Shown: piece by piece, positions 1,570-62,049 of the stretch
Layout: every line of letters begins with the position of its first letter
Position numbering within the stretch: the stretch's first letter is position 1
Notes under the pieces: generated by a model
What the model saw: the letters and a program-made list of their open reading frames with translations, nothing else
Databases searched by the model: none
Told to the model about the DNA's origin: nothing
Program-made: the position numbers and the translations under genes
Source: Mermis nigrescens
Lineage: Eukaryota > Nematoda > Enoplea > Mermithida > Mermithidae
Length of the DNA: 64,000 bases
Assembly: GCA_036768485.1 (NCBI GenBank)
Contig: JAVLUZ010000054.1
Coordinates: forward strand, 248,001 to 312,000
Direction: 5' to 3'

Positions 1570-1599
1570 TCACACTGTATAGTCGTAAAAAAGCTGATG

Positions 1600-2536
1600 G
1601 GAGTGATCCAACATGATAAGACTATGAAACTCGCTGTATATGATGCTTTCAACAATTTATTTACCCCATAATTGGTATACATTAAAAACAAAACACAGAA
1701 CAGAAATCAAAATTATAGATACAGATGGCACTGAGCATAAACTTTACTAGCAGGAAGGATGCTACGACTCCATCCAAAAATTTATAGAGGCTCTGAAATT
1801 TTGTGTAGAAGAAGTAGAAGGAGTAGAATTCACATATTACACTTTAATAAAACACGTTTCTGCAATGAAACTACACCTGGGCGTGGAGGGGTTTGGGGGG
1901 TATGCACACCCCAGAAACCAAAATACTCCCCCCAGAAATCAAAATACCCCCCAGAATTCAATTTTTGAAAATTTTTTTCGCTTTTTTCGCAATTTTTTGA
2001 TGCCAATGGATAGTGCTTGATGAGGAACGTCGAAAAATGGTGTTTTTATCACCATACCACTATTTTTAAGGCGATTTTTTGACCTTCAAAAAAATCTTGC
2101 ACCCCCCCCAGAAATTTCTTGCTGCCCACATATGAATGAAACTCGCACCCTTTGGGAAATCAGTGAAACTATCCAAAAGAATAGCAAATATTTTAGGATT
2201 TAAAGAAACTGTACTAAAAGATACAGGATGGTTGGATAGGGAGCCGGACTTGGAAGTAGTAGTCTTGAAACCTTGTACGTATATGTAGATATTTTAGAAC
2301 CCCAGATTGTAGGCAATATTTCAGCTCCTGTTTTGCACAGCATAAATGCGGAAGGAACATACCGTAACATCATAGACATAATCTATGATTTTCCTCACTA
2401 CATTCCTGTCCTTGTAAAACATATTTATAGCATAGAAATAAACACAAAAGACAATTTGGATCTATTGATACCATTTATTTCCAGAAAAGTGATTGTCAAG
2501 CTGCATTTTAGAAAGATTGAACCTTCATATTTTTAG
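1600..2536 (+). pseudogene. Polinton/Maverick-type minor capsid protein pseudogene, copy A
   Basis: The reading frame can be followed in pieces from about 1600, through a segment that asks for a GCYDSIQKF-type helix near 1760, to the best part at 2273-2536. That part contains VYVDILEPQIVGN, then YIPVLVKH, then IEINTKD and a C-terminal KVIVKLHFRK. This ordered set matches the family annotated as F54H12.2-like, which is the Polinton penton-type minor capsid protein. A MITE (1872-2134) lies inside the gene, and copy B at 46108-46120 keeps the empty site. At least one further frameshift separates the upstream part from 2273. The TBP-like pseudogene follows about 10 bp downstream on the same strand. 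The family call is from remembered motifs, not from a search. Confidence 0.65.
1872..2134 (-). mobile_element. hAT-type MITE (family M), copy 1, reverse orientation
   Basis: The ends read tacacctgggc and gcccacatatg, an imperfect 11 bp terminal inverted repeat. Perfect 8 bp target site duplications, aatgaaac, lie at 1864-1871 and 2135-2142. The paralogous copy B has the single uninterrupted site near 46112, which proves insertion after the block was duplicated. Confidence 0.93.
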
Positions 2537-2546
2537 ATATAAATAA

Positions 2547-3048
2547 TTGTGTCTATTAAAAATTCATCATTCTCAATCAGGGTTACAATTTAATGTGGTT
2601 TCTACAGCTCGAGTCTCTTCAAAGCTTTTAAATTTGTATAAAATTAAGAGAAGTTGTGATCGGGTAGAATACAATCATAGAAGATTCAATGCTATGATAA
2701 TAAGAATGAAAGACCACAAAACAATAGCTCTATTATTTAGTACTGGCAAGCTTGTATGCATTGGTGCTAGAAGCATTGAACAAAATAAAATTGCAAACGC
2801 AAAAATTTGCAAAATGTTGGAGAAAAAGTGGATACAATCTAAAACTGACTGAACATAAAGTTCACAATATTAGATTCAGGAAATTTATGCACAAATATAA
2901 ATTTACATGCTCTTGCTCAAGCACACAAAAAAATTTTGAATACAAACAAGAACTATTCCCTAGTTCAAAAATACAATTTCTGGATGGTTCACCCTCTGCT
3001 CTTATTTTTACAATGGGAAAAATTGTTGTAGCAGGTGCCAGAAGTTAA
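2547..3048 (+). pseudogene. TATA-binding-protein-like (TBP) pseudogene, copy A
   Basis: Two TBP direct repeats can be read in order. The first repeat shows VVSTARV, then YNHRRFNAMIIRMKDHK, then ALLFSTGKLVCIGARS. The second shows YNLKLTEHKVHNI, then FEYKQELFP, then SALIFTMGKIVVAGAR. These match the TBP saddle landmarks (N-I-V-x-T/S, Y-N-P-x-R-F, L-I-F-x-S-G-K-x-V-x-T-G-A-K, Y-E-P-E-L-F-P). The coding part is only about 165 codons, so it is a bare TBP core without a long N-terminal tail. Small indels near 2825 and 2870 break the frame. It lies immediately after the capsid pseudogene on the same strand, which suggests co-capture in one element. A host TBP retrocopy is possible, but the strong divergence and the conserved position next to a capsid gene argue against that. 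Confidence 0.75.
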
Positions 3049-4976
3049 GCACAACTGAAACAATTTCAAAAACACATAATATGTTTGACTGATGCATTCA
3101 GAATTGTTTGAGCACAAACTAAATTGTAGGCAGTGTTGCTTGCATACAGAGGTCAACACTGTAGTAATTCAACCCCATACGGCTATACTATGTTATTATA
3201 TACTGAGGAAAAATGATAGCAATACTATATGCATTTTAACCCATTCAACTATGTTTTCCGCTAGAAGTGAGTAGCTTATGAACAATAAATTTGAAGGTCC
3301 AAAATTGATAGTATAGTATATTTTTTCTGCAGGTCCTTTGTGCTGTACCCATCCCTACTAAAACAGAAGATGATTCTTAGAATGAGCTAGATAATAAATA
3401 ATAAGGGAAAGCAATATTCAGCAAAAATTTATTCTAAAAATACTAGACATAGACAAAATTGTTTGCTTAATGTGCAAAAAAGGTACCACTCTGCATCTTG
3501 ACCCATGTGGTGATGTTCTAGGCAAGAAATAAGTAATTGCCAATCATTAAAATTCATAGCCTTCTTGATGTTGTTAAAACATCTATCTTTGAGTAGGGTT
3601 CAGTGAGCTGCACCCTTATTAAGCAAAATGCAGAAGTGCATGCTTTATGTTAAGCGATGATAAATATTATAACCATTCAATATTTGTAGAGTGATTTTAT
3701 GCATGGCATGGTAATAATTAGCCACCCATTTATGTTAAATGTTTGTTTAAATATTAACGCTTCAAAAATTAACACCTCATGCATAAATAATTTGACGAAC
3801 CCTTCAAAATCATTTGAATCATGGAAGCCAAGTTGTTTGTCTTCTAGGCATACTGTACAAAAATTTGATCGTGAAATTGATATATCAATGGCGCGTCTAA
3901 AACAATTATGCATGTGCAAATGAGAGATTATTTTGGATGCATCTATAAAGTCAAAATGCAAGTAATATAAGTGCGGTCTATTTGCAATAATACTGGACAA
4001 AACACCTTGATATTGTCAAAACATTAAGGAACTTCTCATAATAACATTTTTAGGATTTATACGTCTAACTCAACAAATCATAATCGATACAGCAATATTT
4101 GGCCGGATGGATTATGAAATGTCATTTCCTGCGGATGTAGGTTTTTTGTGCCAGAACCCACTTAAAAATGATCAATCATTACATGCCCCAGTGGGAGTTG
4201 AATCAAAATCCTAAAAAGTTAGTAAATCAGTGAATGGGAAAACTCATTTTTCCAATCTTTTCAAAAAGTACACTCAAGTTATTTTTATGCAGAGACTAGA
4301 AATTTAATTATGTTTTATGCATATGCAACATTCACTCACCCTTACAGGATATTATTTCTGGGCTGATGGCCCTCTCACACTTCATCTAATAGTCTATTGT
4401 GTGATCCTGTGCTGTATGTTATAAAATCTATAGCCAAACCCTCACAAACAGGCCACAGTTCCATTTTATTGTCTGCTTTACCTAAACGGAAACTGATTGA
4501 GTATTTGTTTTCCAGTGCCGTCCTACACCTGTGCCCATTTGTGAGGGTCAGCTTTCAGTCTTAGTTAGGTGTAATTGACTTAAAAAGGGTATTCCATTGC
4601 TTTAAAGTCTAGGAAATCTTGATTTTACGTGATAAATCTAGTGATTTGAAAATGTGGTGCTTGATCTCTACTGGGAGGTCCGAAATTGACAGCATACTAT
4701 TTGTGTTGATGATAAATTTCGAGAATAAGAAGGAATGATCAATTGGGGACTGTAGAAAGAAGGATAAATTAGAGAATGTAGAAGGACAATAAAGTGAGTG
4801 AATGTAGAAGACAAAAAAAGCAAGAGAACATAGAAGAATGAAAAAGAACTCAATTTTTGTGCCTTATATACTTACAAAAAAATGCTTAAATGTGTGGTGC
4901 TACATTGTGGAGTAAAATATAATCTCCACTTGAAGTAGAAATCAAACAAGACAGGGCACAACTTGTGCATCAGAGC
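3049..4976. other. Unassigned part of the duplicated block, copy A
   Basis: About 1.9 kb, clearly collinear with 47026-48962 in copy B. Short open frames exist on both strands, for example 3677-4000 minus and 3699-3923 plus, but none is recognisable and none stays open in both copies. I see no RNA gene here. Confidence 0.5.
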
Positions 4977-23640: not shown

Positions 23641-26427
23641 AGGCAAAAACAAAATTCATCAAGTAGCTTAATTTTCAGTGTTTTTGGGCGTTCATTTACT
23701 ACATTGCTTTTTGTGATTTTTGCATTAACAATAACATGATAGTGAAGGCACAATATCAGGTGAAAGTATGATAGAGTATGAAGATTACTTGATCGGATAA
23801 ACAAGAGCTAATGCTACCTGTAAAATCATTTAAATCAGAAACTTGTTCAATAGATAACAGTGATATAATTCATGCACAAACGTGTGTTCAAGAAGGAGTG
23901 ATAGTGAGACAATTGAAGGATAATGATAAGGTGTGTGCAACAAAATTGATTTGTCCATCAGGATTACACATAAGTGAAAATGGCGTATGTGAAAACCCGT
24001 GCAGGTGTCCCACATGGGCCACAAGTTGCACATTTAAAAGGTTGGAGAATGTAGTCCTTCCAAATAATTTTTGGCAAATTTTAGAAAGATCTGCACCAAC
24101 AATTTGTTCATTTACTTTGAATGAGAGATGTTCACAAAATCTAATGATGACCAAAATCAGTAAAATTCAATTGCTAAATAATGAAACTCATTATGTCCAA
24201 AATGTACAACTGACTTTCGAAACTAGTGTAAAGGAGCATTATATTTGTGTTAGGGAGGGTCCACTTACAGTGGGAACCCCAAAATTTAGCAAAAAATTTG
24301 ATTGTGTTGCGTTTGGCGTCGGAAATAAATTTTGCTACTTTGATTTGTACGATATATTTAAATTCGTAAATGAAGATGGTAGTATACCTATTTTTACATT
24401 GGGCTCAAAGAAGGTGTCATTTTATGGTCACAAAATTAAAGACAATTTATTTAAATGAGCAAGCTGTCTTAAGTGTAAACTTTCTTGCATTCAAGGCGGA
24501 GTTTTGGTAAAATTAAAGGATAATATAGGCACAATAGAAGTGTGTTTCTAAGCCTTACTGTTATACAATTAGATTCCCGAGTAAAAAACAAAAAATTATG
24601 TTTCCTCCTGATGTTGAACTAAAGAATCACGAATTTACTCTAAAGATTTGGAGTAATGGAATTTTGATTAAAATAATAGACATAAATTGTGAAGCTCAAC
24701 TGTTCTGTGAAATGATTAATTGCAAATTTTGTATGGAGTTACTACATAATCCTCAGTGCAGTCCAACCAGATATTTCATATTAATCTGTACTTTACATTA
24801 TATATTTTTGGGGACATTATACTTTGTGTTGAAGATATTATATCAATTAGCCAAAATCGTAATCCTAGTAAGCAGATTAATGAGGAAATTAGTGTATTTC
24901 TGTTTTACGTGCTGTGTTTACCGAATGTGTAAGAAAACAATTTTGCGAGAAAGGAGAGGACTTTCATATAGAACAATACAGAGAACTTCTATAATCATAA
25001 TTTGTTTTTGTAGTATTCTAGTACTTGACTGTTGTTCACAGACAACTTCCTTAACTGCTCAAAGATCCTTTTGTACTGATGATAATGAAAATAAATTAAG
25101 TTGTGTAATAACTGAAACAACCCGATTGTCATTAGTACCTCAGGGTCAGGATAAATGTTAATAATTAAAGATGAGAATGGGAATGCAATCGGAAATTTAG
25201 CGGTTGAAGTAAAGAAAATTGATTTACATTGTGATAAACAAAACAATTATTTTTCACAATCATTTCAAATGCATGTAAAATCAAGTAAAGTATCTGGTTA
25301 TTGAGGTTCATGTTATGGCAATATTTGCTTAGATACTAAAACAGATACTATGATAGACGAATTATCAGGGGAAGCAAACAATAATCGAGGATTTACTCAT
25401 TGTGTAGAATCATGTGGATGTGCTGCCTGCGGCTGCTTTCTTTGTACTTATGCTTGTCTTTTCTATAGAACGTATGCTAACCCTACTTCAGAGACAGTCT
25501 ATGAGATAATTTCGTGTCCAACTTGGCAATACAATGTTGAAATTACTGTGAGGATTAACATAAAGAATGAGCAGGAGAAGGAGACTTTTTCATTGAGACC
25601 AGGGACATCTACTTGGTGGAAAAATTTAGCACTTAGTCTTGTGTCAATAAGCATGCCACCAATACCTCTTTTAAGAAGTCAATTTTTAACAGATGGGAAA
25701 AGAGCAGTTTATAGTGAAGGCATCCGCTTCACGACAACCTATTGCTGGGACTTTAGGACAACTTCAGTGTGCTAATAAAGAGAAAGCTCGTAAATTTGAT
25801 TGTTATTTACCGCATAATCCATGTCAATGTCAAAATTGAGAAATTAGAGCAGCATGCACTTGTACGGATCAAAATTTTGAATCACTTTACAACAAAAAGG
25901 AGATTTTATCGCCTTTACACTCAAATGGCTTTACACTCTTGGCGATTGGTGAAGAAATTAGTGCAGAAGTTAATCATTTAGCTGCGTTAGAACTACAAAT
26001 TGACCTAGAAGGATTTCATTTAGTGACCAAAATACAGAAAAATATGTGTCAAGTCAAAATGCTGAAATTTGGCTGTTGCTATAGTTGTTTAATGGGAGCT
26101 ACACTTGAGTATACGTGTAAGACGGATTTTGGTGAAGCACTTGCTCACGTTATTTGCAGAGAAGTGAAATTTGCCATAACATGCACCGCGAGTGGGATAA
26201 GTTCTAGCACAATAATGAATTTTAACAAAGCTCATATAAATGAACCATGTAAAGTTAATTGTCCTGCTGGAATAACAGAATTTACTATTCATGGAGTCTT
26301 GATTTATGTTGAGAAAGAAAGGATAAACAATGTGTTGAATATTATTTCAGCTTTCGATGCGACGGAAAATTCAGATAATTACATGTTTGATTTTGACTTT
26401 GATTTCAGTTTTCTAAGATCTAATTGA
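23641..26427 (+). pseudogene. env: BEL/Pao env, phlebovirus-G2-like glycoprotein
   Basis: A hydrophobic segment near 23690-23739 (TTLLFVIFALTIT) may be the leader. Cysteine-rich pieces follow at 23811-24458 (CENPCRCPTWATSC), 24598-25161 (with a membrane-like stretch), 25350-25775 (ESCGCAACGCFLCTYACLFY, then SCPTWQYNVEI) and 25939-26427. A last membrane segment lies near 26440-26530. The Cys cluster followed by the C-P-T-W block is the phlebovirus G2-like pattern known from nematode BEL elements. The gene is broken by stops and frameshifts near 24459, 24550, 25160-25350 and 25775-25938. It would mediate membrane fusion in an intact relative; here it is dead. Confidence 0.75.
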
Positions 26428-40109: not shown

Positions 40110-43477
<3,368 letters not shown>

Positions 43478-44948
43478 TGTTTATACTATTTTGAAGTAAA
43501 AAATCAGTTTAAAACAAATGTGAAACAATATAAGTATATCTAAAATTAATTTATCAGAGAAAAGATATGAATATGCCTTACCGTCTAAATTGTCAAAACA
43601 AGTTTCGTACATAGGAGAGACTGAATTGACTTTCAAAAGTACGCAAAATGTTTATAGTATTTTGAAGTAAAAAACTCAGTTTAAAACGGATGCGAAACAA
43701 TATAAGTATATCTAAAATTTATTTATCGAGAAAAATAAAAATGTGCCTTTCCGTCTGAAATTGTTAAAACAGGTTCCATTCGTAGGAAAGACTGGAGTGA
43801 CTTTCAAAAGCACGCAAAATGTCTATACTATTTTTGACGTCAAAAATCGAGTTTAAAACAAACGTGAAACAATATAAGTATATCTAAAATTAATTTATCG
43901 AGAAAAATAAAAATATAACTAACTGTCTAAATAGTTGAACAAGTTTTGTATGTAGAAGAGACGCAATTTACTTTCAAAAGTACGCAAAATGTTTATACTA
44001 TTTTGAAGTAAAAACTTAGTTTAAAACAAATTTGAAACAATATAAGTATATCTAAAATTAATTTATCGAGAAAAATAAAAATATACTCTTACCGTCTGAA
44101 ACTAGTTAACACAAGTTTCGTACATAGGAGAGATTGAATTGACTTTCAAAAGTACGCAGAATGTTTATACTGATTTTAAAGTAAAAAATCGGTTTAAAAA
44201 GAATGTGAAACAATATAAGTATATCTAAAATTAATTTATCAAATAAAAATATACCTTTCCATCAAAATAGTTAAACAAGTTTCATACGTAGGAAAGACTG
44301 AATTTACTTTCAAAAAAGTACCAAAATGTTTATACTATTTTGAAGTAAAAAACATCAGTTTAAGACAAATGTGAAACAATATAAGTATATCTAAAATTAA
44401 TTTATCGAGAAAAATAAAAATATACCTAACCGTCTAAATAGTTAAACAAGTTTTGTATGTAGAAGAGACTCAATTTACTTTCAAAAGTATGCAAAATGTT
44501 TATACTATTTTGAAGTAAAAACTCAATTTAAAACACATGTAAAACAATATAAGTGTATCTAAAATTAATTTATCAATATAAATAAAAATATACCTTATTG
44601 TTTAAATTGTTAAACAAGTTTTGTATGTAGAAGAGACTGAATTTACTTTCAAAAGTATGCAAAATGTTTATACTATTTTCATTTATAAAAACCTTTTCAA
44701 AACAAATGTGAAAGAATATAAGTATATTCAAAATTAATTTATCAAGAAGAATAAAAATTTACCTTTCTGTCTAAATTGTTAAACAAGTTTTGTACATAGG
44801 AGAGACTTAATTTACTTTCAAAATTAAGCAGAATGTTTATACTATTTTGAAGTAAAAAAATCAATTCAATAAATTCTACCAAATGTATAACATTGTAAGT
44901 ATATTTAAAATTAAATTATCCAGAAAAAAAAATAAAAATCTATCTTAC
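43478..44948. repeat. Tandem array of ~170 bp units, copy B
   Basis: About nine units, starting near 43478, 43649, 43819, 43990, 44162, 44328, 44498, 44665 and 44834 (spacing 165-172 bp). On the minus strand each unit includes an exon-like stretch followed by a GTAAG-type donor, similar to the end of the exon at 44949-45181. Confidence 0.92.
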
Positions 44949-45181
44949 CCTCTAACTTATCGAACAACTTTCCTACGTAGGAAAGACAAATGCTTTCTTC
45001 TTTTAAACATCTTCAAACTGGTCGGCAAATAGCTAAAACCCTGTCATCTTTTTCAGCCCCTCAGCTGGTATTCCATATTGCTGACGGGCCCTTTCTTTGT
45101 ATAAATGCTTTGACCATTTGGATAGCTTTGGCCATATTAAATCCACAATTCTTCCTCCAAATAGCGGATTGGACTTGATGC
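44949..45181 (-). pseudogene. Exon-like ORF, uncharacterised, copy B
   Basis: Minus strand, bounded by an acceptor (caatatttttag) upstream of 45181 and a GTAAG donor after 44949. It reads IKSNPLFGGRIVDLIWPKL, then KHLYKERARQQYGIPAEGL and KKMTGF, where a frame change occurs. The protein is unknown to me. The regular make-up and splice-like borders suggest genuine descent from an exon. The copy at 645-882 is more decayed. Confidence 0.4.
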
Positions 45182-45307
45182 CTAAAAATATTGAGAACAT
45201 GAGCAAAAACATATCATAATAACAAGCGCACAGCTTTAAAAAGTAAAGTTTTGAAAATATAAGTAAGTTAAAAATTATATATACTTTTCATAATATCTTG
45301 GACTTTA

Positions 45308-45520
45308 ATGAAATATTGTAAAAACTTCACAGGGGGCAGCATACTTGGCTCAATATATATAGATGTGAATTTTGAAAATGAATACATTGGAATTGAAAAT
45401 TATAGTGCTTTCACTTTACTCAATACATGTGACACTGTGCTATACAAATATTTTAGAGTGGGTATTTATTTAAATATATGTAAGGTCAGGCTCCATTGTC
45501 ACTTACATGAAAGAATTTAA
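45308..45520 (+). CDS. Short ORF conserved in both block copies, hypothetical
   Basis: 70 codons from ATG at 45308, with ENYSAFTLLNTCDTVLYKYF and VGIYLNICKVRLHCHLHERI. Copy A (about 1019-1230) keeps the second half but is broken in the first. No family recognised. It may be a remnant of a larger gene of the capsid-bearing element, which starts about 330 bp downstream. Confidence 0.3.
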   Translation: MKYCKNFTGGSILGSIYIDVNFENEYIGIENYSAFTLLNTCDTVLYKYFRVGIYLNICKVRLHCHLHERI

Positions 45521-45849
45521 TGGTCAGTGTAGACAATATAATATTGTGTTTGCTTTGTATGCTTTTCATTTATACTTTAAGATTATATAATAACTCTGTG
45601 GAGTATACAAATTTTTCAAAAATTTAGAGGCCATGCTCGCAAAAAGGAGCAAATATGAATATGAATTTTTATGCTACATAGCATAATTGATCGAAATTCC
45701 ATTTATTAAGCACAACCGACAGCAAAACCTATAACCTTATAATTTTACAGACGTACATACTTTGCTTTGACAAGTGATTAAAAAAACACTTTTATTTATA
45801 ATTAATTTTTCAACAAATGATAAAAATTAACACTTGTAAAAAACCTGAT

Positions 45850-46518
45850 GGGAGTGATCCAACATGATAGGACTATCAAACTCGTGGTATATGATGTTTT
45901 CAACAATTTATTTACATCATAATTGGTATACATTAAAAAAATACAGAACAGAGATTAAAATCATAGATACAGATGGCACTGCGCATAAACTTTAATAGCA
46001 GTAAGGATGCTACGAATCCATCCAAAACTTTATAGAGGACATGAAATTTTGTGTAGAAAAAGTAGAAGGAGTAGAATTCACATATTACATTCAATAAAAC
46101 ATGTTTCTGTAATGAAACTCGAACCCTTTGGGAAATCAGTGAAACTATCCAAAAGAATAGCAAATATTTTAGGGTTTAAAGAAATTGTACTAAAAGATAC
46201 AGGATGGTTGGATAGGGAGCCGGACTTGGAAGGAGTAGTCTTGAAACCTTGTATGTCTATGTAAATATTGTGGAACCACAGATTGTAGGCAATATTTCAA
46301 CTCCTCTTTTGCACATCATAAATGCGGAAGGAACATACTCTAACATCATTAACAGAATCTATGATTTTCCTCAGTACATTCCTGTCCTTGTAAAACATAT
46401 TTCTAGAATTGAAATAAACACAAAAGACAATTTGTATCTATTGATACCATGTATTTCCAGAAAAGTGATTATTAAGCTGCATTTTAGGAAGATTAAACCT
46501 TCATATTTTCAGATATAA
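45850..46518 (+). pseudogene. Polinton/Maverick-type minor capsid protein pseudogene, copy B
   Basis: Same gene as 1600-2536, without the MITE. Pieces: NWYTLKKYRTEIKIIDTDG near 45920, KLSKRIANILGFKEIVLKDT near 46144, TGWLDREPDLEG near 46200, and 46249-46518 with MYVYVNIVEPQIVGNIS, YIPVLVKHISRIEINTKD and KVIIKLHFRKI. The last block is the signature end of the F54H12.2-like Polinton capsid family. A frameshift near 46255 and stops near 45995 remain, so it is non-functional. A virion role in intact relatives (pentameric vertex protein) is family knowledge. Confidence 0.68.
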
Positions 46519-46522
46519 ATAA

Positions 46523-47025
46523 ATGTGTCTATTAAAAATTCATCATTCTCAATCAGGGTTACAATATAATGTTGTTTCTACAGCTCGAGTCTCTTCAAAG
46601 CTTTTAAATTTGTATAAAATCAAGAGAAGTTGTGATCAGGTAGGATACAATCATAGAAGATTCGATGCTATGATAATAAGAATGAAAGACCACAAACAAT
46701 GGCTCTATTATTTAGTACTGGCAAGCTTGAATGCATTGGTGCTAAAAGCATTGAACAAAATAAAATTGCAAATGTAAAAATTTGCAAAATGTTGGAGAAA
46801 AGTGGATACAATCTAAAACTGACTGAACATAAAGTTCACAATATTGTAGATTCAGGAAATTTGTGCACAAATATAAATTTACATGCTCTTGCTCAAGCAC
46901 ACTAAAAAAATTTTGAATACAAACAAGAACTATTCCCCAGTTTAAAAATATAATTTCCAGATGGTTCACCCTCTGCTCTTATTTTTACAATGGGAAAAAT
47001 TGTTGTAGCAGGTGCGAGAAATTAA
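46523..47025 (+). pseudogene. TATA-binding-protein-like (TBP) pseudogene, copy B
   Basis: ATG at 46523, five bases after the capsid stop. First TBP repeat: YNVVSTARV, YNHRRFDAMIIRMKDHK, then after a one-base frame change near 46695, ALLFSTGKLECIGAKS. Second repeat: YNLKLTEHKVHNIVDSGN, NINLHALAQAH, FEYKQELFPSL, SALIFTMGKIVVAGARN, stop at 47025. Two in-frame stops lie near 46903 and 46950. Between the two copies every core block is intact in at least one, so a complete TBP core existed in the ancestor. There are no introns, which fits a virus-like element or a retrocopy. Confidence 0.78.
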
Positions 47026-48962
47026 GCACAACTGAAATAATTTCAAAAAAGCATATGTTTGACTGATGCATTCAAAATTGTATGAGCACGGACTAAATTG
47101 TACGCAGTGTTGCTTGCATACAGAGGTCAACACTGAAGTAATTCAACCCCATATGGCTACACTATGTTATTATATACTGAGGAAAAAAGACAGAAATACA
47201 TATGCATTTTAACCCATTCAACTATGTTTTCCTCTAGAAATGAGTAGCTTATGAACAATAAATTTAAAGGTTAAAATTGATAGTATAGTATATTCTTTCT
47301 GCAGGTCCTTTACGCTGGACCCATCATTACTAAAATAGAAGATGATTCCTATAATGAGCTAGATAATAAATAATAAGGGAAAGCAATATTCAGCAAAAAT
47401 TTATTCTAAAAAATACTAGACATAGACGAAATTGTTTGCTTAATGTGCAAAAAAGGTACCACTCTGCATCATGACCCATGTGATGTTCTAGGCAAGAAAT
47501 AAGTAATTGCCAATCATCAAAATTCATAGCCTTCTTGATATTGTTAAAACATCTATCTTTGAGTAGGGTTTAGTGAGCTGCACCCTTATTAAGCAAAATG
47601 CAGAAGTGCATGCTTTATGCTAAGAGATGATAAAACCATTCAATATTTGTTGAGTGATTTTATGCTTGCCTGATAATAATTAGCCACTCATTTATGTTAA
47701 ATGTTTGTTTAAATATTTAAGCGAAAAAATTAACACTTCATGTAAAAATAATTTGACGAACCCTTCAAAATCATTTGAATCGTCAAAGCCAAGTTGTTTG
47801 GCTTCTAGACATACTGTACAAGAATTTGATTGTGATGGCGTTTCTAAAACAATTGTGCATGTGCAAATGAGAGATTATTTCTGGATGTATCTATGAAGTC
47901 AAAATGCAAGTAAGATAAATGCGGTCTATTTGTGATAATACTGGACAAAACACCTTGATATTGTCAAAACATCAAGGAACTGCTTATAATAACATTTTTA
48001 GGATTTATACGTCCATCTCAACAAAGTCATAATCAATACAGCAATCATTGACCGTAAACTGCTTTATCTAGAGGGCACAATATAAAAGTCCATGATGGAT
48101 TATGAATTGTCATTTCCTGCGGATGTAAATTTTTTGTGCCGGAACCCACTTGAAAATGCTCAATATTACACGCCCCAGTGGGAGTTGAATCAAAATCCTA
48201 AAAAGTTAGTAAATCAGTTAATGGGAAAACTCATTTTCCAATCTTTTTAAAAAGTACACTTAAGTCATTTTTATGCAGAGACTAGAAATTTAATTATGTT
48301 TTATGCATATGCAACATTCACTTACCCTTACAGGATATTGTTACTGGGCTGATGGCCCTCTTGCACTTCATCTAATAGTCTATTGTGTGATCTTGTGCTG
48401 TATGTTATAAAACCTATAGCCAAACCCTCACAAACAGGCCACAGTTCCATTTTATTGTCCGCTTTACCTAAATGGAAACTGATTGAGTATTTGTTTTTTA
48501 GTGCCGTCCTACACCTGTGCCCAATTGTGAGGGTCAGCTTTGAGTCTTAGTTGGGAGTAATTGACTTAAGAAGGGTATTCCATTGGCTTTGAAGCCTGGG
48601 AAATCTTGATTTTACTTGATAGTTCTAGTGATTTGAAAATGTGGTGCTCGATCTCTACTGGGAGGTTCAAAATTGATAGAATATTATTTGTGTTGATGAT
48701 AAATTGCAAGAATAAGAAGGAATGATCAATTGGAGACTGTAGAAAAAACGATAAAATAGAGAATGTAGAAGGACAATAAAGTGAGTGAATATAGAAGACA
48801 AATAAAGCAAGAGAACATAGAAGAATGAAAAAGAACTTAATTTTTGTGCCTGATATACTTACAAAAAATGCTTAAATGTGTGGTGCTACATTGTGAAGTA
48901 TAATATAATCTCCACTTGGAGTTGAAATCAAACATGACAGGGTGCAACTTGTGCATCACAGC
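47026..48962. other. Unassigned part of the duplicated block, copy B
   Basis: Collinear with 3049-4976. A 63-codon frame at 47705-47896 differs from its partner in copy A by indels. No gene recognised. Confidence 0.5.
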
Positions 48963-49526
48963 CATACGTGGGCAACAAGAAAATTCTGAGGAGGAGGGTG
49001 CAAGATTTTTCGAAGGTCAAAAAATAGCCTCAAAAATGGTGGTATGACAAAAAACCACATTTTTTTATGTTTCTCATTAAGCACTATCCATTGGCATCAA
49101 AAAACTGCAAAAAAACGAAAAAAATCTTCAAAAATTGAATTCTAGCGGGGGAGTATTTTGATTTCTGGGGGGCAGGGGTTATTTTTGTTTCTCAGAGGGT
49201 GCGTACCATAAGGTGGGCAGCACCGAAATTCTGGGGAGGGGGTGAAAAAATTTCTGGGGGGATGAAAAAATTTTTAAATATCAAAAAATTGTCTAAAAAG
49301 TGGTTGCATGGCGAAAAAAACACCATTTTTCGACGTTTCTCATTGAGCACTATCCAATGGCATCAAAAAATTGCTAAAAAAGCAACAACAAAAATTTTTC
49401 TGGAGAGTATTTTGATTTCTGCGGGGGGGGGAGTATTTCAACTTTCAACTTCTGGGAAGTGCATACCCCCATGCCCATGTGTGGTGCAAACCCCCCCCAA
49501 TATACCCTCTTCCTTGCCCAGGTGTG
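48963..49526 (+). mobile_element. MITE family M, copy B, holding a second MITE
   Basis: Perfect 8 bp duplications, atcacagc, at 48955-48962 and 49527-49534; same insertion as 4977/28410 in copy A. A related MITE lies inside it at 49207-49483. Confidence 0.93.
49207..49483 (+). mobile_element. MITE of the M superfamily nested in MITE
   Basis: Starts cataaggtgggc and ends gcccatgtgtg; flanks gtgcgtac and gtgcaaac (6 of 8 match). It inserted at the same gtgcatac site of the host MITE that was used at 9971-9978. Confidence 0.85.
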
Positions 49527-53458: not shown

Positions 53459-56400
53459 TAAACCGCAGGGATCCCTCTTTTCATTTTGCTGAAAAAACTG
53501 TGGCCAGGTTTTTTCAGTTTGGAATAGAAGACGTTATTTTTGATTTGCAAAAATTGATCAAGATAACGGAGAGCAGAATTCTGAAGATAAAGGTGAAATA
53601 CAAAGAGAAATTTTTAGTGAGAGTACAGAGAAACTTAATCTTACTGAAGAACAAATAGAAAGTCTTGAAGAAACTCTTACTGCTCAACAACGTTTACTAG
53701 AATCTATTTTTCGAACGACTTCACTAAGCCCACCAAAGTTCCACGAATATAGTACCCCTATTTCTTTTCCACGTCCGTCTACGAGTTTAGGTCGATTTAC
53801 AACGCAGTCAGAGATAGTTCCGGAGACTTCAACCCCTATATTCACGAAGGAAACGGTAAAACAATTCAAAGAATATTTGTCATTAAAATCTGATAAACCT
53901 GTTACTAGAAAAATGGTTACAGATCCAACTCAGTTAGAAACCGCTTTAAAACGAGCTTTCGAAGGTTTTGGTGAACCTCTAAGACAAGATATACAGGAGC
54001 TGAGAGATAATATTAATGAACATGATAATGATGATACTTTTATGCGGTTTGGAAGCATGATAAACGCTCGACCCCCAAAACCTTTTTCTGGTTCGTTCGC
54101 AGAATCTTTCGAGGATTGGTATGAAAAATTCAAAAAATATATGATATTACAAGGAGCCATGAGAATGCCCTCGGACTATAAAATTGCTCTTTTAGAATCT
54201 AATCTGACAGGCCCTGCTTTCGTTTCACTTATGAATGCCCAAAAAACTTTACGTGAAGCTACTTTTGATGATCTAATAGATGCGCTACGTTTAGACTATC
54301 CTGAAGATAAAGATGCTGACGTACTGCAGCAAATGATTTATGATTCTCATCAAAAAAGAAATGAAACTGTACTAGAATTTTCAGAACGTTTAAAAAAATT
54401 AGCTAGATCGGCTTATCCCCAATTAAGTGTGAAAAATCAGGAAGCTATTTTAAAACCAATATTAATTCGAGGCTTGCTCCCTAAAATCTATGAGGGGATT
54501 AAATTTCAAGATTTACCTCTATTCTCTGATGTGGTAAGAAGAGCAACAGCTGCTCAGCAACAATTATTTAGAGAAACGATACAGAACTACCCAACTTCTC
54601 CCTCTCATTCTGATATGACGATGCATAATTTAAGCGTGTTACATAATTCCGAAAATAAAATGGAACGCGAATTACGAGAGATCAAAAATTTGATCGAAGG
54701 CAAGTTTAAAGAAACACCCGTGCACTGCCAAATTTGCGGTCGCCACAATCATGCGACTAGCGCTTGTTATTTCCGCCCAAATTCAGGTCCAGTGCCGGCG
54801 AACACCGCGTGTTATAAATGCGGCGAAAGTGGCCGACATTTTTCAAGGAATTGCCCATATAGCCAAGGTAACTTTAGTAGCAGTAGCACTCGTTTTAATA
54901 ATAATAATAGTTATAATAGTAGCGTAAATGGTTCAGTTAACCGTAATAGAAATCATATTAGAGGAAATTTAAATCATCTACCTCCAAACAGAAGTAATGC
55001 GCATAGAACTAACACTGTAAATCAACATTATGTGCAAAATAATAATCGTAATGCCCCTGTTAGACCAAATTATAATCAAAGGACCCTTGAAAATAATTAT
55101 CGGCAGAATGCTTCACTTCCAAGGCATCGTTCCCCTACACAAATAAACAGAAATGAAGGAAATGTTCGTTTTCAAATGAATTTCAATGAATTAGAAAACG
55201 ACGGAATACAGAAATTAAATGATGAAAATGACAAGTTCTTAGAAATTTTGAATACCGAAGATGAAACCCTTTTTTCGGAAGTAAATGCTGATAACAGCAT
55301 AAATTTAATGTTATTAACCCATCCAGATCCGGACGACGAAATCGCGCTGTTAGGCTTCAGGCCTGGCAGCTTGAATTATGGTGAGCCACCATTCTTACCA
55401 CAAAACCCTTCGCCAACCCTAGAAAATGGCGGAGGCGATGAAATTCCAAACGAGACCGAAGAAGTCGGCAATAGAGAGCAGAATCAAGATTTTGTTCCCT
55501 TTGACCCTATTGACACTATCGAATCTTTATGGCAGGAAGAGGACGCCGAAATTTCGAATCTGACCCGTAAATTCGACGAAGATTTTTTTACATCCATCGG
55601 CTGGATGGATTTATCGTCACCGACCCTCGGAGTTGAAAGTCGCACTTGGAATGACTTGAATACTCCTAATGCGAATGTTTCAGGCAATCGTCCGATCATT
55701 AATGAAGTTGGTCGCGGTCATGGACGGCAAATCCGTTCGATTTTCGAATATTTACCAAGTCCGGGATGCACTTGCCTAACGTGCCCGCTCCACGCCGACG
55801 AATATCGTCCTGAACCGGCCGGGTTAAAGCGCCCCCGCCGATCGTTGAGCCTAGAGTGCTCAAAGAATACAACACCATCGCCGACCGTTATTTCGATCAG
55901 CGCAGCATCTAGCAACGCGGAGGACAAGAAACCGATTCAGAAATGGGAGCGTGGTTCAGGTACACCATTTGTCTTTTTCATGTATAAACTCTTGGTATTT
56001 TTAAAATTTCAATTTCTATTTCTACTTTCTATTAATTTATTGGCTCAAAATTTAAAAGTAATACATAAAAATCAAAAAGTATCGACGTGTTCGTTGATCG
56101 AGGTTTGCATGACTGTACGCTATATATTATTGATGTTTACATTGTCCTTATATGTCGAACAAGCTAAAACCATCAGAATGAATATATATAATTTTTCGGA
56201 AAATACATTCATTAAAATTTCAATAATTTACCTCATTTTCAAGTTATCATTAAAACATTTAATTTACCCAACCCCTATAAAAATCTGTGCATCCTGCGTG
56301 TATATTAATTTGTGCATGCTGTGTATTAATTTAACATCGTTTACATTCCATCCCTACAACTTTTTCCAATATAAAAAATCGGAAAGATCCAAAATCATAG

Positions 56401-56921
56401 TTCTCATTAAATCCATCACTAATGAAGTCACGGAATCAATAAAAATTATTATCGACAATTCATCTTCCTCATCGTATAATAATAACCCCCAGAAAGTCAA
56501 ATTCCTGAAGTTCAGACGCATTATATTGTCTTGCCCTCAAGTTTTCCTAAAATTGAATATAATTCGGGAGAAAATCCGAGTATGTGTACAAAATTATTTG
56601 TCAAAATTTATTCAAACTCGGCCCACGAACTTCAAATGCTTAGAAAAACAAATTTATTATTCAAAAGCTATAAATAAAATCCATAAATATGAAAGAAAAT
56701 CTTTGGGAAAATGTATACAATCTAATATCACTAAATATAAGAATTTCGGCATAGATTACAATGAATTAAATCGGTTTCAGACAAGACCGATTCCGAAAAC
56801 GAGGACGTTTGAACGTCCACTATACCAAGACAAAACCTGCACGTTTGCACGAACGACAAAGGCTCAAAAGCCTGAATTTTTTAATTTAGATTTAGATATC
56901 TTTGTAAATATTTCTTTTATA
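53459..56921 (+). CDS. gag: Gypsy-A Gag polyprotein and linker
   Basis: The frame is open from about 53459 (after a stop) to 57257, but the first in-frame ATG is at 53913, so about 150 upstream codons lack an AUG start. The capsid-type domain includes PKPFSGSFAESFEDWYEKF near 54072 and ETVLEFSERLKKLARSAYP near 54364. Two zinc knuckles follow: CQICGRHNHATSAC (54727-54768) and CYKCGESGRHFSRNC (54811-54855). An Asn/Arg-rich spacer, then an acidic region and a CTCLTC motif near 55770 precede a change at about 55960 to an AT-rich, membrane-like linker that stays open to the env leader at 56922. The Gag function is packaging of the element RNA. A splice donor-like CAG-GTACAC sits at 55955-55963. 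Confidence 0.85.
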
Positions 56922-58700
56922 ATGCGATTAATTGTGTTTCTTTGCATTTTCTTATTATCGACGGCAAGTAAAACGTTCCAAATTTGTGGAACCAGTAAAA
57001 GTGGACATCCTGTTTATTTGCCCCGATCCATTCAATGCACCCCACCCGAGAATATTTTGGAAAAACCAAAAATGAAAAATGTGAGTGTATTTATACCCCG
57101 AATGAAGCCTGAGAGCGTAACCGCTATAAAATGTATGATATTAACTAGAACTGTTTGCACAAATATGGGATTTTTCGGCTCGAAAGGAATTATTTCAGAT
57201 GAAACTAAAATTAACACCGTCCCTTTTGATATTTGCAAAAAAATCTTTCGAGAATAAGCGTTATCAAAATAAAACGCTAATAAAGGATTCTAATGGTTTT
57301 TGGACTACGAATTTGGAATTAAATGTAAAATTTATTTGGTGTTGCGTTGATAAGTGTTCATCCCTCTCTAATTTCTTGGTAGAACAAGGTGAAATCGCTA
57401 GTTGGGATGGAGATACGCTGATATCTGACCTAGGCGATTTAAGCAGCTGCAGACCTGTTTATGGCAACTGCAAGACATCTGAAGGTACTGTAATTTGGAA
57501 TGGCGATATATTTAAAGAAGTTTGCCCTTATGTCCTTAAAGGCACCTACCGAGCATTAATAAGCCTACCATATGTAGTCATAGACGATCTTCAATCTGCA
57601 CTCGTTATTAATAAACTATACACGAAATGCAGTAATCTGCTGAATGTTCGCAGCACTGAACAAGGCATTCTGATACAAATTCATCAGTTTCACGATCGAG
57701 AAATTTCCAAAATATCGCAAAATGCGAAAAATTTAACTCAATCGAAGAATTATGATCCCATAAACCTTAAATTAAATTATTTAGAATTAAGAATACAACA
57801 AGGAGAATCATCTAGCTTTCAACGTGTTTGGTTAGAACTTTGTAGAAATCTTCAAAGACATCTTGATATTATGTGGCAGCTAATGTACATAGACCCTACT
57901 GTAGGTGCTCGAGCTTTCTTCCAACGCACGGATATAGTGGCGGAGTTTACGGGACAGGTACTTACTCTCTGGCCTTGTAGAAAAATAAATGCTACTAAAA
58001 TTTACACCGACCATAGAATTAATCAAACGTGTTATAAATATATGCCTGTACAATATAATGAAGAAATTTGGTTTTCTCTGCCAGGAAGTATTGATCTCGT
58101 TCATTTTTCTGAAACGATTGATTGCAAACATAAAAGAATAGAAATATTTCGATACAAAGATAAGTGGATTACGGAATCTGGTATTATCCATGTAACTAAT
58201 GTTCCAGTGGAATTAAATTGGAAATCTAATAACACTATATTTCAATTTAACACCCCAGCTGTTTTCCATGATAAGTTAGCTACTGGAGAACCTACTTTTG
58301 GTCTTTTCCGAAACTATTTACATAAAACCGCCTATTTAGAACGTACAGTAAATCGTTTAGTGCATTACACGGCGCGAATGTCATTAGACCCCGCTGCTAT
58401 CTACGAAACTCTTGCAGGCGCGGGACAAAGTATTAAAAACACAATAACTGGAGCCGGAATCGCTCTAAAAGAATTTGTTGTTGACACACAAACGAGTTTT
58501 ACCTCAAATTTTAATTCTTTATTGAAAGGTCCTTTTCAGTTACTTATTAATCTCCTACTAATTATACTAGCAATCTTGATTTTTTGTTCAATAATATACC
58601 TATATATAATGAAAAGAAAAAGCAAAGTCAACGCCATAGAATCTCCGACTACATCGGCCCAAGTGCAAAGCGAATCAATAGGAGAAAGTCTTTGGAAATC
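56922..58700 (+). CDS. Gypsy-A env-like fusion glycoprotein, in two overlapping frames
   Basis: ATG at 56922 opens a hydrophobic leader (MRLIVFLCIFLLSTASKT) in the gag frame. An ectodomain rich in cysteines follows, and a membrane span of about 24 residues lies near 58540-58610 (LLINLLLIILAILIFCSIIY), followed by a basic KRKSK. The first part is in the frame ending at 57257, the rest in the frame that opens at or before 57199; the two frames differ by one nucleotide around a run of seven A at 57237-57243. Conserved blocks include CTNMGFFGSKG, VWLELCRNLQRHLDIM, DPTVGARAFFQRTD and LTLWPC. The pattern suggests a class III, gB-like glycoprotein, the origin proposed for env of the nematode BEL element Tas; this is inference. 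Whether the frame change is programmed or a lesion is open. Confidence 0.75.
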
Positions 58701-61700
58701 GCTCAATCTCAATAAGCCAAAAAAAGACCAAAAACTAAATTTAAAAATGCTGAAAGTACGATTTAAAAAGAACGTGAAAGCGCAAAATAATGAGCCCTGT
58801 GTAACAATTGCGACATTAAACAGCGCTTATCTAAGAACGCCTCATTTAAATGTAATAATCAATGATCATGCGATGGCAACGGCATTAGTTGACACAGGAG
58901 CCGTATTTTCCCTTTTAGATCATCAAATAGCTTTGAGAATGCCATGCAAAATTTATAAAGCGAACATTAAACCTGTAGCAGCTAATGGGGGAATAATTCC
59001 TATAAAAGGCGCTACCTTCATTAAAATAAGTATGTATGACGTCAATGAAACGCTTCTTGTTTACACTCAAGAAAATTGTTCTGCTGATTTGATTCTAGGA
59101 ACTAATTTCTTGTCACGCTTTAATGATGTTCATTTTAGTTGGCGAAGATCGACTATAAAATTCAAAGAGGAAAATATTCCATGTGAAGGAATGATTTATA
59201 AACCATTAGAAAAACGCAGCGTAGTAACTTTGCAAGAAAATATTATTTTACCACCTAAAAGCTTTACAATGACAAATGGACAGGTGCCATCACTGTATGA
59301 CATTGGAAAAGAGGTTATTTTTACCCCCACTAATCTCGTTGATAATGAAAGAGTATATGCCGCGAGTAGCATATGCCACGTGCAAGATCAACAAATTCCA
59401 ATTCAAGTTATTAATACAAATAAGTATAGTGTAAAGTTACATGCTAAGACAAAAATGGGTAACATAAATTTGCATATGGAAGATGAACAAGCTCCGACTC
59501 CGATTGTTACGAAAAGTCACACTGATTTAAAGGATTGGATATCTTCTAATGCTAATATTTCACCTAATTTAAATCCAAATGAGAAAAATGACGTCATAGA
59601 ATTATTACTCAAATATCCTAATTTATATGCAAAAGATCAACTTGACTCGGGAGAAACTAATTTAGTTGAGCATACGATACATACGGGAGATAACCCACCT
59701 GTACGCAAATTCCCTTTTCGAACCTCTCCAAAAGAAAAAGAGATAGTTATTGAAGAAGTTCGAACTCTAGAGGAAAAAGGCATATTGAGACCTAGCACCT
59801 CTCCCTGGTCAACTAATACGGTCTTAGTTCGTAAAAAGGACGGTGGACACCGCATGTGTATCGATTTTTGCGGCCTTAATAGTGTAACTAAAAAGAACGT
59901 GTACCCCTTGCCACGAATTGACGACATACTTGATGCTCTAAATGGAATGCGATATTTTACCTCTCTTGACCAGGCCAATGCCTACTATGCGATCCCGATA
60001 AGAGAAAAAGATAAGGAAAAAACAGCTTTTTCCACTCCCATCGGCTTATTTGAATTTAACTTTCTTCCTTTTGGGTTGTGCAATGCTCCTGCAACATTTT
60101 CTCGACTCATGGACTTAATTCTTTCAGGTTTACAATGGATCATATGCTTAGTTTACTTGGATGATGTTTTAATTTTTGCGAAAAACCATACAGAAATGTT
60201 AGAAAGACTTGATATATTGCTGAATAAGTTAGATACAGCAAAAATGAAGCTTCGCTTATCAAAGTGTAAATTTTCATACAAAGAAATAACATTTTTGGGT
60301 CATAAAATTTCAGAAGAAGGAATTCTGCCCGACGATAAAAAGATTGAAGCTGTCAAAAACATCCCCAAACCCACAAATGCTAAAATGGTCAAATCGTTTT
60401 TAGGACTTATTTCATATTACCGGAAGTTTATTAAAAATTGTTCTCAAATTGCTGAACCACTAAATAAACTTTTACGGAAAACCAACAAATTCATCTGGAA
60501 GGAAGAACAGCAAAAAGCTTTCGACGAATTGAAAATCAAACTTATAAATCCTCCGATTCTCTCTCATCCTAATTTTCAAAAACCATTTATCCTACAAACG
60601 GATGCTTCTTATGAAGGAATAGGAGCCGTTTTGTCTCAGATTAAAGAAGATAATCTAGAACACCCAATAGCATACGCAAGCAGAGCATTAAGAAAAGCAG
60701 AAAAGAACTACCCCGTAACAGAAATAGAAACATTAGCAGTCGTTGAATTCATTAAGCATTTTCGCCCATATCTATATCAGCAAGAAGTGGTCGTTGAAAC
60801 AGATCACACTGCTGTGAAGGCTGTCCTAGAAAAAGAGAATCCCTCGTCTAGAATAGCGAGATGGGGCTTAGCTCTAGCAGGAATAAAATTAACGGTAATA
60901 CCCAGAAAAGGTTGTAAGAATATGAATGCGGATGCTTTATCTCGCTTACCACAACTAATTAATCAATATTTTGATATTGATAAAAACGAAATAATAAATG
61001 AAAGTGACAATTCGGTAAATATTATCAAATCAAGTAATTCTCAGGCAGACAATGAACAAATAGAAATAACTAAACTACAACATAATGATAAAACGTTATT
61101 GATAATAATTGAAAACATAAATCAGAATACTGACTACATTCTCGAAAATTCAGTATTGTATAAAATTGAAAACAATGCTAAAAAACTGGTTATTCCATAT
61201 TCACTACGTAATTTAATCATTTTCACTCATCATGACGATGAACTATCTGGACATTTTGGCGCCCGGAAAACAATTAAACTCATTAGTAATAAATATTATT
61301 GGAACACATTGTTCAAAGATGTTACTTATTATTGCCAGACATGTAAAATATGTCAGGAAAATAAGCCTTCTAGAAAGAAAATTCTTGCGACGCTAAAACC
61401 CATCGAATGTACTAGACCATTTGATAGAATCGCTGTAGACTGTATTGGACCTTTAAATATTACCGAATCCGGTAACAGATTCATAATAGCTTTCATAGAC
61501 TACTTTACCAAATACATAGAAGCATATGCAGTACCGGACATAACAGCTGAAACTACTGCAAAGATTTTTATTACGCAAATTGTTTGTCGCCATGGCGCTC
61601 CTTTAATTCTACAATCTGACCGTGGATCTAATTTTACTTCACAGCTAATGTACGAAATAACGAAAATATTCAATACACACAAAATTCACACAACTGCGTA

Positions 61701-62049
61701 TCATCCTATCGCAAATGGCGAGATAGAAAGAGCTAATCAAACTCTAATAACTCGCATTCGTATGTATATCAACTTGAACAACGCTAATTGGGATGAACAT
61801 CTTCCGTATGCTGTTTTCGCCACAAATATACACGAAAATGAAACCACTAAGCACACACCATTTAAATTAGTATATGGTAGAGCCCCAAGATTGCCCATCG
61901 ATGCAGCTTTAAATTATAAAAGACCATTTTATCTTCTAGATCCTGACACTTATGATGCTGAAGTAAAAGAACATTTCACTCAAGCACTTAATAAGATTCA
62001 GAGACAAATAACGGAGTCACAAGAAAAATATAAACAGATTTATGGCTGA
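57199..62049 (+). CDS. pol: Gypsy-A env C-terminal part plus Pol polyprotein
   Basis: One frame of 1,616 codons. Residues up to about 500 are the env ectodomain, span and tail. Protease: ALVDTGAVFSLLD, catalytic D at residue 565. RT: RKKDGGHRMCIDFCGLN near residue 877, LPFGLCNAPATF near 957, active site YLDDVLIF with the aspartates at 988-989. RNase H: QTDASYEGIGAVLS (D1135) and TEIETLAVV. Integrase: HHDDELSGHFGARKT and CQTCKICQ (zinc site), then D1414 (AVDCIGPL), D1474 (QSDRGSNF) and E1510 (GEIERANQ), a D-35-E spacing. The frame ends at 62049; the integrase tail continues in another frame from about 62042. All catalytic residues are present. Confidence 0.92.
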   Translation: MKLKLTPSLLIFAKKSFENKRYQNKTLIKDSNGFWTTNLELNVKFIWCCVDKCSSLSNFLVEQGEIASWDGDTLISDLGDLSSCRPVYGNCKTSEGTVIWNGDIFKEVCPYVLKGTYRALISLPYVVIDDLQSALVINKLYTKCSNLLNVRSTEQGILIQIHQFHDREISKISQNAKNLTQSKNYDPINLKLNYLELRIQQGESSSFQRVWLELCRNLQRHLDIMWQLMYIDPTVGARAFFQRTDIVAEFTGQVLTLWPCRKINATKIYTDHRINQTCYKYMPVQYNEEIWFSLPGSIDLVHFSETIDCKHKRIEIFRYKDKWITESGIIHVTNVPVELNWKSNNTIFQFNTPAVFHDKLATGEPTFGLFRNYLHKTAYLERTVNRLVHYTARMSLDPAAIYETLAGAGQSIKNTITGAGIALKEFVVDTQTSFTSNFNSLLKGPFQLLINLLLIILAILIFCSIIYLYIMKRKSKVNAIESPTTSAQVQSESIGESLWKSLNLNKPKKDQKLNLKMLKVRFKKNVKAQNNEPCVTIATLNSAYLRTPHLNVIINDHAMATALVDTGAVFSLLDHQIALRMPCKIYKANIKPVAANGGIIPIKGATFIKISMYDVNETLLVYTQENCSADLILGTNFLSRFNDVHFSWRRSTIKFKEENIPCEGMIYKPLEKRSVVTLQENIILPPKSFTMTNGQVPSLYDIGKEVIFTPTNLVDNERVYAASSICHVQDQQIPIQVINTNKYSVKLHAKTKMGNINLHMEDEQAPTPIVTKSHTDLKDWISSNANISPNLNPNEKNDVIELLLKYPNLYAKDQLDSGETNLVEHTIHTGDNPPVRKFPFRTSPKEKEIVIEEVRTLEEKGILRPSTSPWSTNTVLVRKKDGGHRMCIDFCGLNSVTKKNVYPLPRIDDILDALNGMRYFTSLDQANAYYAIPIREKDKEKTAFSTPIGLFEFNFLPFGLCNAPATFSRLMDLILSGLQWIICLVYLDDVLIFAKNHTEMLERLDILLNKLDTAKMKLRLSKCKFSYKEITFLGHKISEEGILPDDKKIEAVKNIPKPTNAKMVKSFLGLISYYRKFIKNCSQIAEPLNKLLRKTNKFIWKEEQQKAFDELKIKLINPPILSHPNFQKPFILQTDASYEGIGAVLSQIKEDNLEHPIAYASRALRKAEKNYPVTEIETLAVVEFIKHFRPYLYQQEVVVETDHTAVKAVLEKENPSSRIARWGLALAGIKLTVIPRKGCKNMNADALSRLPQLINQYFDIDKNEIINESDNSVNIIKSSNSQADNEQIEITKLQHNDKTLLIIIENINQNTDYILENSVLYKIENNAKKLVIPYSLRNLIIFTHHDDELSGHFGARKTIKLISNKYYWNTLFKDVTYYCQTCKICQENKPSRKKILATLKPIECTRPFDRIAVDCIGPLNITESGNRFIIAFIDYFTKYIEAYAVPDITAETTAKIFITQIVCRHGAPLILQSDRGSNFTSQLMYEITKIFNTHKIHTTAYHPIANGEIERANQTLITRIRMYINLNNANWDEHLPYAVFATNIHENETTKHTPFKLVYGRAPRLPIDAALNYKRPFYLLDPDTYDAEVKEHFTQALNKIQRQITESQEKYKQIYG

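Follow-up and report, generated by a model that had tools for sequence, protein, structure and literature searches.

A window of 64,000 nucleotides on a contig of the nematode Mermis nigrescens (the whole stretch of DNA that was analysed, positions 248,001 to 312,000 of JAVLUZ010000054.1) raises the question why a gene resembling that of the TATA-binding protein (TBP) lies directly behind a capsid-type gene, and whether it belongs to the host or to a mobile element. A reading made from the sequence alone had recorded both TBP repeats at this place without introns, and our searches agreed: intact relatives matched the region by tblastn with E-values down to 2e-68, the reversed TBP protein used as a control in the same search gave no match better than E 0.58, and no intron was seen in the window TBP-like gene. 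The proposed gene limits stood only in part. A penton-like gene is indeed found just 5' of the TBP-like gene, but the TBP homology starts near 46568 rather than 46523 and ends about 57 bases beyond 47025. This gene (copy B; Table 1) is 81-84% identical in its DNA to eight intact or nearly intact relatives; a frame change and stops interrupt it, and it lacks the start codon seen in the relatives. The short motif TATAAATA ahead of it is the counterpart of the TATA box that the relatives carry about 40 bases before their TBP start.

A second capsid/TBP pair had been reported at 1600-3048. It exists (copy A, likewise disrupted by frame changes and stops), though it does not count as independent support, because both copies lie in one duplicated repeat of about 5 kb; the idea of two independent copies in the window was ruled out by the same blastn comparison. 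Copies A and B are dead remnants, duplicated fragments of a Polinton/Maverick-type element. With our reference-protein set, no other Polinton genes were found in the window besides penton and TBP. A weak match of 27 residues to MCP on the minus strand (1573-1653, E 2e-4) was absent with the later reference set, and matches to integrases of the retroelement type (14.2-14.7 and 61.2-61.9 kb) were not counted as Polinton. In intact relatives the penton-like gene is placed behind a C5 protease gene and a jelly-roll capsid gene; we take it to be a putative minor capsid gene from this place and its presumed similarity, and the capsid models of Pfam gave no match to the penton-like proteins of the L025 and L016 loci.

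Table 1. Positions of the features discussed. Plain coordinates refer to the window; those with a prefix refer to contigs (C) or to fetched loci (L).
Feature	Position	Strand	Evidence or remark
Decayed TBP-like gene, copy B, both TBP repeats, two frames	46568..47082	+	tblastn with intact relatives, best E 2e-68
Pieces of the copy B TBP-like gene	46568-46696 (frame 2); 46690-47082 (frame 1)		matched by intact relatives
Minor-capsid (penton)-like gene, decayed into three pieces, each in its own frame, directly 5' of TBP	45873..46509	+	tblastn with PEN_L043, E 4e-72
TATAAATA at the junction of the penton-like and TBP-like genes, sharing bases with the penton stop codon	46514..46521	+	sequence reading
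Decayed penton-like gene, copy A, about 0.26 kb inserted	1646..2533	+	homology to relatives
Decayed TBP-like gene, copy A, two frames	2592..3108	+	tblastn E 4e-38 and 1e-30 to 2e-32
Duplicated repeat with copy B; its counterpart with copy A, window 1-5199, aligns at 86-91%	44327..49192	+	blastn
168-bp tandem array, 9 copies, overlapping the left part of the duplicated repeat	43451..44987	+	Tandem Repeats Finder
TBP pairs 34.7 kb apart	C68:2305624/2340355, C68:2754980/2789711, C77:1365516/1400247, C161:98983/133714, C194:3279207/3313938		
TBPs whose central repeat-2 Asn is replaced by Leu or Met	L012:4819-5391, L013:4618-5175, L016:4601-5116		
F-box genes	L010:6221-7039, L011:5685-6551, L012:5708-6574, L013:2973-3809, L021:8267-8689		

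The genome was searched for further copies (523,963,438 bases in 860 contigs; the accessible text on the published Mermis nigrescens assembly gives 524,220,005 bases, 867 scaffolds and 83.98% repeats, PMC10989877). At least 362 distinct TBP-like places were found on 173 contigs, with the window copy and broken copies counted. This figure pools 288 of the 300 matches obtained with the Pfam TBP model and the window TBP piece (two host matches and ten that were the second repeat of an already listed gene were left out) with 150 matches to the TBP of L016, these being the best 150 of 2551, 952 and 2136 candidates, respectively. The places are not all separate insertions, because several near-identical copies may be segmental duplications. 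The host has one TBP gene, split into two matches on contig C73, and the other Pfam TBP matches were dispersed. Among these best matches, counted by eye, the matched stretch was free of stops in 142 of 150 (Pfam TBP), 127 of 150 (window piece) and 139 of 150 (L016 TBP), and the 139 span the full query. At five places, two TBP genes with the same match scores stand 34.7 kb from each other, which points to a large duplicated segment. Furthermore, 24 TBP pairs were less than 25 kb apart, nine of them pointing outward, one inward and 14 in the same direction (e.g., C671:167569/181148 and C51:9200796/9213078); the outward-pointing pairs are possibly head-to-head element dimers.

The Polinton neighbourhood was checked for a subset of the at least 362 places. 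Twenty 10-kb stretches centred on a TBP gene were picked by hand to span the ORF classes of the Pfam TBP search, and the reference proteins for hallmark genes came from those same stretches after identification by Pfam or by similarity. Of the genes by which Polintons are recognised, a family-B polymerase, an rve integrase, an A32-like ATPase, a C5 protease and a double jelly-roll MCP were present. The family-B DNA polymerase (PolB) was recognised by the Pfam model DNA_pol_B_2 in L011 (E 1e-19), L013 (4e-19) and L010 (9e-14), and the integrase as rve with chromo in L016, as rve in L012 and by similarity in L028 and L052; the stretches fetched for the window/L025 subfamily showed no integrase. 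The packaging ATPase (PF04665) reached 22.8 bits in L016, which is the cut-off, and 20.6 bits in L023, below it. The adenovirus-type C5 protease (PF00770) was above the cut-off in L025 and L012 and just under it in L016. Against the MCP model PF21738, L025 scored 20 bits and L028 15.6 bits with a cut-off of 27, and L016 gave no match; the L016 MCP is 58% identical to that of L025. The predicted model of P0123, a database relative 83% identical to the element MCP, matched the capsid proteins of PBCV-1, Sputnik and mavirus (E 1e-15 to 2e-11, TM about 0.5-0.66).

A Polinton hallmark gene was present in 17 of the 20 chosen stretches, and none was seen in the 10 kb of L009, L018 and L022. The TBP-like genes of L003-L009, L018 and L022, for which no hallmark was seen in the stretches examined (10 kb for L009, L018 and L022; 3.2 kb by eye for L003-L008), may belong to a different kind of element; the L003 type repeats with the same neighbours. 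The position of TBP differed by clade. One clade has it as the final gene ahead of the right end, following protease and penton, as in L023 and L025, where the order on a single strand is ATPase-X-X-MCP-protease-penton-TBP (the L025 ATPase in pieces). In other clades TBP lies between integrase and ATPase, divergent from the ATPase, or near PolB and an F-box gene. For example, L016, L017, L026 and L028 have the order integrase-TBP (opposite strand)-ATPase-X188-X167-MCP-protease-penton (integrase fragmented in L017 and L026); L052 has integrase-TBP-ATPase-X-X-MCP-protease-penton with a PolB match about 7.5 kb to the left; and in L010, L011 and L013 PolB lies within 5 kb of TBP and an F-box gene within a few kb. 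F-box genes stand near TBP in several Polinton families (Table 1) and are possibly a second host-directed accessory gene.

The counts over more loci gave the same picture. In the window subfamily, penton adjoins TBP in 19 of 20 loci, with the protease as well in 18 of 20; the 20 include the window itself, and five of them share one identical TBP. Among the matches listed, 26 of 80 PolB places (one match counted per place) had a TBP within 20 kb, always downstream on the same strand and at 9.6-18.2 kb, where about 2% each would be expected by chance under uniform placement. Also among the matches listed, 61 of 94 MCP places had a TBP within 5 kb, again all downstream and on the same strand, and 18 of 94 had both a TBP within 5 kb and a PolB within 15 kb. 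Divided by capsid identity class, the matches listed gave a TBP near MCP at 14 of 15, 47 of 57 and 0 of 22 places. The last value suggested a 60-61% capsid class without TBP; this was ruled out by L052, which was chosen from that class and holds a TBP frame of 170 aa divergent from the ATPase, and TBP was thus found in all three capsid identity classes looked at. At least at L052, the zero is an effect of the limited number of TBP matches listed. Furthermore, all four L025-type copies (L025, L015, L023 and L014) share an endpoint 207-251 bp past the TBP stop (one base further in one of five comparisons), with a right end of ...TACTACT and unrelated flanks. TBP therefore lies inside the mobile unit. 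The sequence-only reading had proposed that a capsid-bearing element once lived in this genome, and the linkage of many copies to capsid, protease, ATPase, integrase or PolB genes supports it, although "once lived" may understate the case, since the frames of many copies are open and some copies hardly differ from one another.

The protein itself is an ordinary TBP. The Pfam TBP model recognised two repeats each in L025 (159 bits, E 2e-47) and L016 (153 bits, E 2e-45) with a cut-off of 22.9. Structure was modelled on database relatives (P0001 and P0123) rather than on Mermis proteins, and the model of P0001, a metagenome relative of 55% identity, had a pLDDT of 96 and a TM of 0.95 to TBP-DNA structures. 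All four TATA-intercalating Phe are kept in 16 of 17 element TBPs, the L003 type having Tyr at the fourth, and both E of the YEPELF stirrup are present in 17 of 17; in cellular TBPs these sites intercalate into DNA and contact TFIIB, respectively. The L016 and L012 types have Leu or Met in place of the central repeat-2 Asn and may therefore prefer different DNA. The dN/dS values (NG86) of nine TBP pairs were 0.07-0.21, four of them with dS above 1 and so saturated, and the five pairs with dS below 0.8 gave 0.13-0.21. Among seven comparison pairs, one MCP and one penton pair with dS below 1 gave 0.07-0.09, three more had dS above 1 (0.08-0.09) and two yielded no dS. Thus the dN/dS of TBP was about twice that of the MCP and penton pairs, a comparison with two pairs only, and the values indicate purifying selection on the element TBPs.

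Many element genes have a TATA box close to their start. The motif TATAWAW occurred at -65 to -22 of 16 of 47 element gene starts (54 minus seven near-duplicates), compared with a mean of 4.35 and a maximum of 9 in 300 shuffles; motif and window had been fixed after some junctions were viewed, and one of the 16 matches is a TA microsatellite (L018). By gene, it was found at TBP (8/12), ATPase (2/3), integrase (2/3), F-box (2/2), penton (1/3) and X257 (1/1) starts, and none was seen in the same interval of the PRO, MCP, X188 and X167 starts, two POLB starts and the rest. The motif on the reverse strand was also somewhat high (9/47, mean 4.0). L052 was fetched after motif and window were fixed, and five of its nine starts (eight of them ATG) carried the motif vs 6.5% of random positions; minus two starts seen before, it was three of seven (P 0.008). 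This is the nearest to a clean test, but L052 is related to L016. In the divergent TBP/ATPase spacer of 44-52 bp, all six loci had TATAWA, a laxer motif than on the other side, on the TBP strand at 36-44 bases ahead of the start, and five of the six had TATAWAW on the ATPase strand at 40-48 bases; the exception was L020, whose spacer length was assumed and where the ATPase-side box is missing at the usual place. These TATA boxes suit the host TBP equally.

From the kept binding residues, the purifying selection and the TATA boxes we infer that the element may control its own transcription. We consider it fairly probable that TBP is a standing gene of these Polintons which would recruit host Pol II to element promoters. 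Such a TBP would be made early, would bind the TATA boxes lying about 30-50 bases before many element start codons and, once bound, would recruit host TFIIB and RNA polymerase II; the element would thereby start its own transcription independently of host TFIID and its control. Since the residues are kept, the gene is selected and TATA boxes stand at many genes, service in element transcription would be the simplest role of the element TBP. An element-borne TBP thus suggests that the elements could switch on their own genes.

It is unlikely, but not far-fetched, that the element TBP serves instead as a weapon or decoy, which ties up host TFIIB, TFIIA or promoters and slows host transcription without any initiation at the element. 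The stirrup residues (E, E, L or I), which we take to meet TFIIB in cellular TBPs, are kept and would suit this, as would the F-box genes near TBP in several families; F-box genes often act on host proteins. However, a decoy needs neither the intercalating residues that 16 of 17 element TBPs keep nor TATA boxes at many element genes. Both functions could coexist in one TBP.

That the element TBP works in integration-site choice or DNA packaging, as a bending or targeting factor outside transcription, seems quite improbable to us. TBP bends DNA, TFIIIB guides Ty3, and in one class the gene sits between integrase and ATPase. However, the four right-end flanks (14 bases each) had no common motif by eye, and there is no fixed link of TBP to the integrase across clades, because in other clades TBP is placed elsewhere.

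The origin of the gene was approached with a main tree of 52 rows, in which animal TLF/TRF2 proteins were left out. Window-type TBPs formed one clade with the metagenome relatives P0001 and P0002 (100/98), and the host TBP grouped with a nematode TBP (100/98). The AU test rejected the window type with the host (p 0.024) and with host plus nematode TBP (p 0.017), p-values that are weakened because the groups were named after the tree was seen. The window type does not group with the host, a grouping that would have spoken against the sequence-only reading, and the source of the window-type TBP was therefore probably not this host. Not rejected were all element TBPs as one clade (p 0.213), the window type with three viral TBPs (p 0.125) and the second element group with host plus nematode (p 0.217). 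When archaea and two long rows were removed, all 18 element rows and two metagenome rows fell on one side of a branch (90/85; 87% of bootstrap trees, not settled); with archaea included, the element TBPs split around the archaeal rows.

These trees bear on a further reading, to which we give very little credence, namely that host TBP retrocopies hitch-hike in Polintons without function or that the gene was captured recently from this nematode. The host has its own TBP gene, window-type TBPs are closest to eukaryotic TBPs (the two metagenome relatives aside), and kinship of the second element group with the host was not rejected. However, a host retrocopy origin is rejected by the AU tests for the window type, and for this type only, whose 55%-identical relatives lie on metagenome contigs; so this reading is already weakened there. 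Purifying selection, the hundreds of stop-free matches among the best ones and the presence of TBP in three capsid classes also speak against it. Hardly credible is the reading that the TBP-like gene belongs to a host family and has Polintons only as neighbours or insertions. It could draw on the three of 20 TBP stretches without a hallmark gene by the reference set, but for the main families (the L003/L009, L018 and L022 types excepted) it is refuted: at dozens of places TBP keeps its orientation and a similar distance relative to MCP and PolB, and the common element end lies beyond TBP with unrelated flanks.

Returning to TBP as a standing Polinton gene, a broader history can be proposed tentatively, and we hold it to be slightly short of probable: one ancient non-animal TBP lineage would have entered an ancestral mermithid Polinton, shifted its position as the clades split, and would now drive virus-specific initiation with host Pol II at TATA-built, partly bidirectional promoters throughout the lineage.

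It is common to place Polintons close to the root of many eukaryotic DNA viruses, and their use of host transcription is regarded as passive. The elements described here resemble Polintons/Mavericks (Preplasmiviricota) in having PolB, rve integrase, A32/FtsK-like ATPase, C5 protease, jelly-roll MCP and a penton-like gene, in open intronless frames and many integrated copies. They differ by TBP in the main clades and F-box genes in some, whereas the vertebrate core set has no TBP. In the literature searched, which lay apart from the dedicated nematode-polinton (Jeong 2023) and adintovirus papers, no description of a Polinton TBP was found in the accessible text. For example, the terms TATA and TBP are absent from the accessible portions of PMC10120064, PMC10328495, PMC11071296 and PMC8097293, and TATA from that of PMC11071308; the available text of PMC12220804 has TATA/TBP only in unrelated references, and that of PMC7786948 has TBP in another connection. 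The accessible part of a report on Romanomermis culicivorax gives 6.5 Mb of polintons (PMC10879605).

TBP genes are known from other viruses. Mirusviruses are eukaryotic DNA viruses that bear TBP, in 59% of genomes vs 0% of Nucleocytoviricota according to the part of the source available (PMC10132985). However, they have HK97-type capsids and large genomes, whereas ours is a jelly-roll-capsid element integrated in an animal genome. TATA-binding protein genes are also given, in the accessible text, for Cymbomonas elements that have links to mirusviruses and no gene for a double jelly-roll capsid (PMC10675990). KSHV ORF24, VITF-3 and ASFV B263R are viral factors that replace TBP at viral promoters or are predicted to do so; the excerpts available describe them as a mimic, an atypical TBP-like component or a predicted TBP (PMC12529657, PMC12917281, PMC5825884). 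Unlike these, the element protein is a two-repeat TBP with about 40-45% identity to cellular TBPs. IMG/VR scans with the element TBP, the element MCP and the MCP alignment found nothing, and the scan with the TBP alignment yielded no more than three viral TBPs (L049-L051, contigs of 35-132 kb). They are virus-borne like the element TBP and 36-41% identical to that of L025, but form a clade of their own. If TBP does serve these Polintons in this way, small integrating elements could possess a basal transcription factor, as has otherwise been reported for large viruses, and basal transcription genes would have a possible route between viruses and animals. The system would also be a ready test bed, with compact TATA promoters, selection acting on the TBP family, and a host that has a single TBP gene.

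Two other elements in the window carry viral glycoprotein domains. At 53877-62049 lies a Ty3-type retroelement, with a long frame in the order glycoprotein domain, protease, RT, RNase H and integrase; the glycoprotein domain is of the Monjiviricetes-type viral fusion kind (E 1.5e-16) and is possibly a captured envelope. At 21511-26427 a BEL/Pao element (Pao peptidase, DUF5641 and a weak integrase) is followed by a Phlebovirus_G2 glycoprotein frame (E 2e-36), an arrangement that resembles the nematode elements with phlebovirus-type envelopes described in the accessible portion of PMC9094657.
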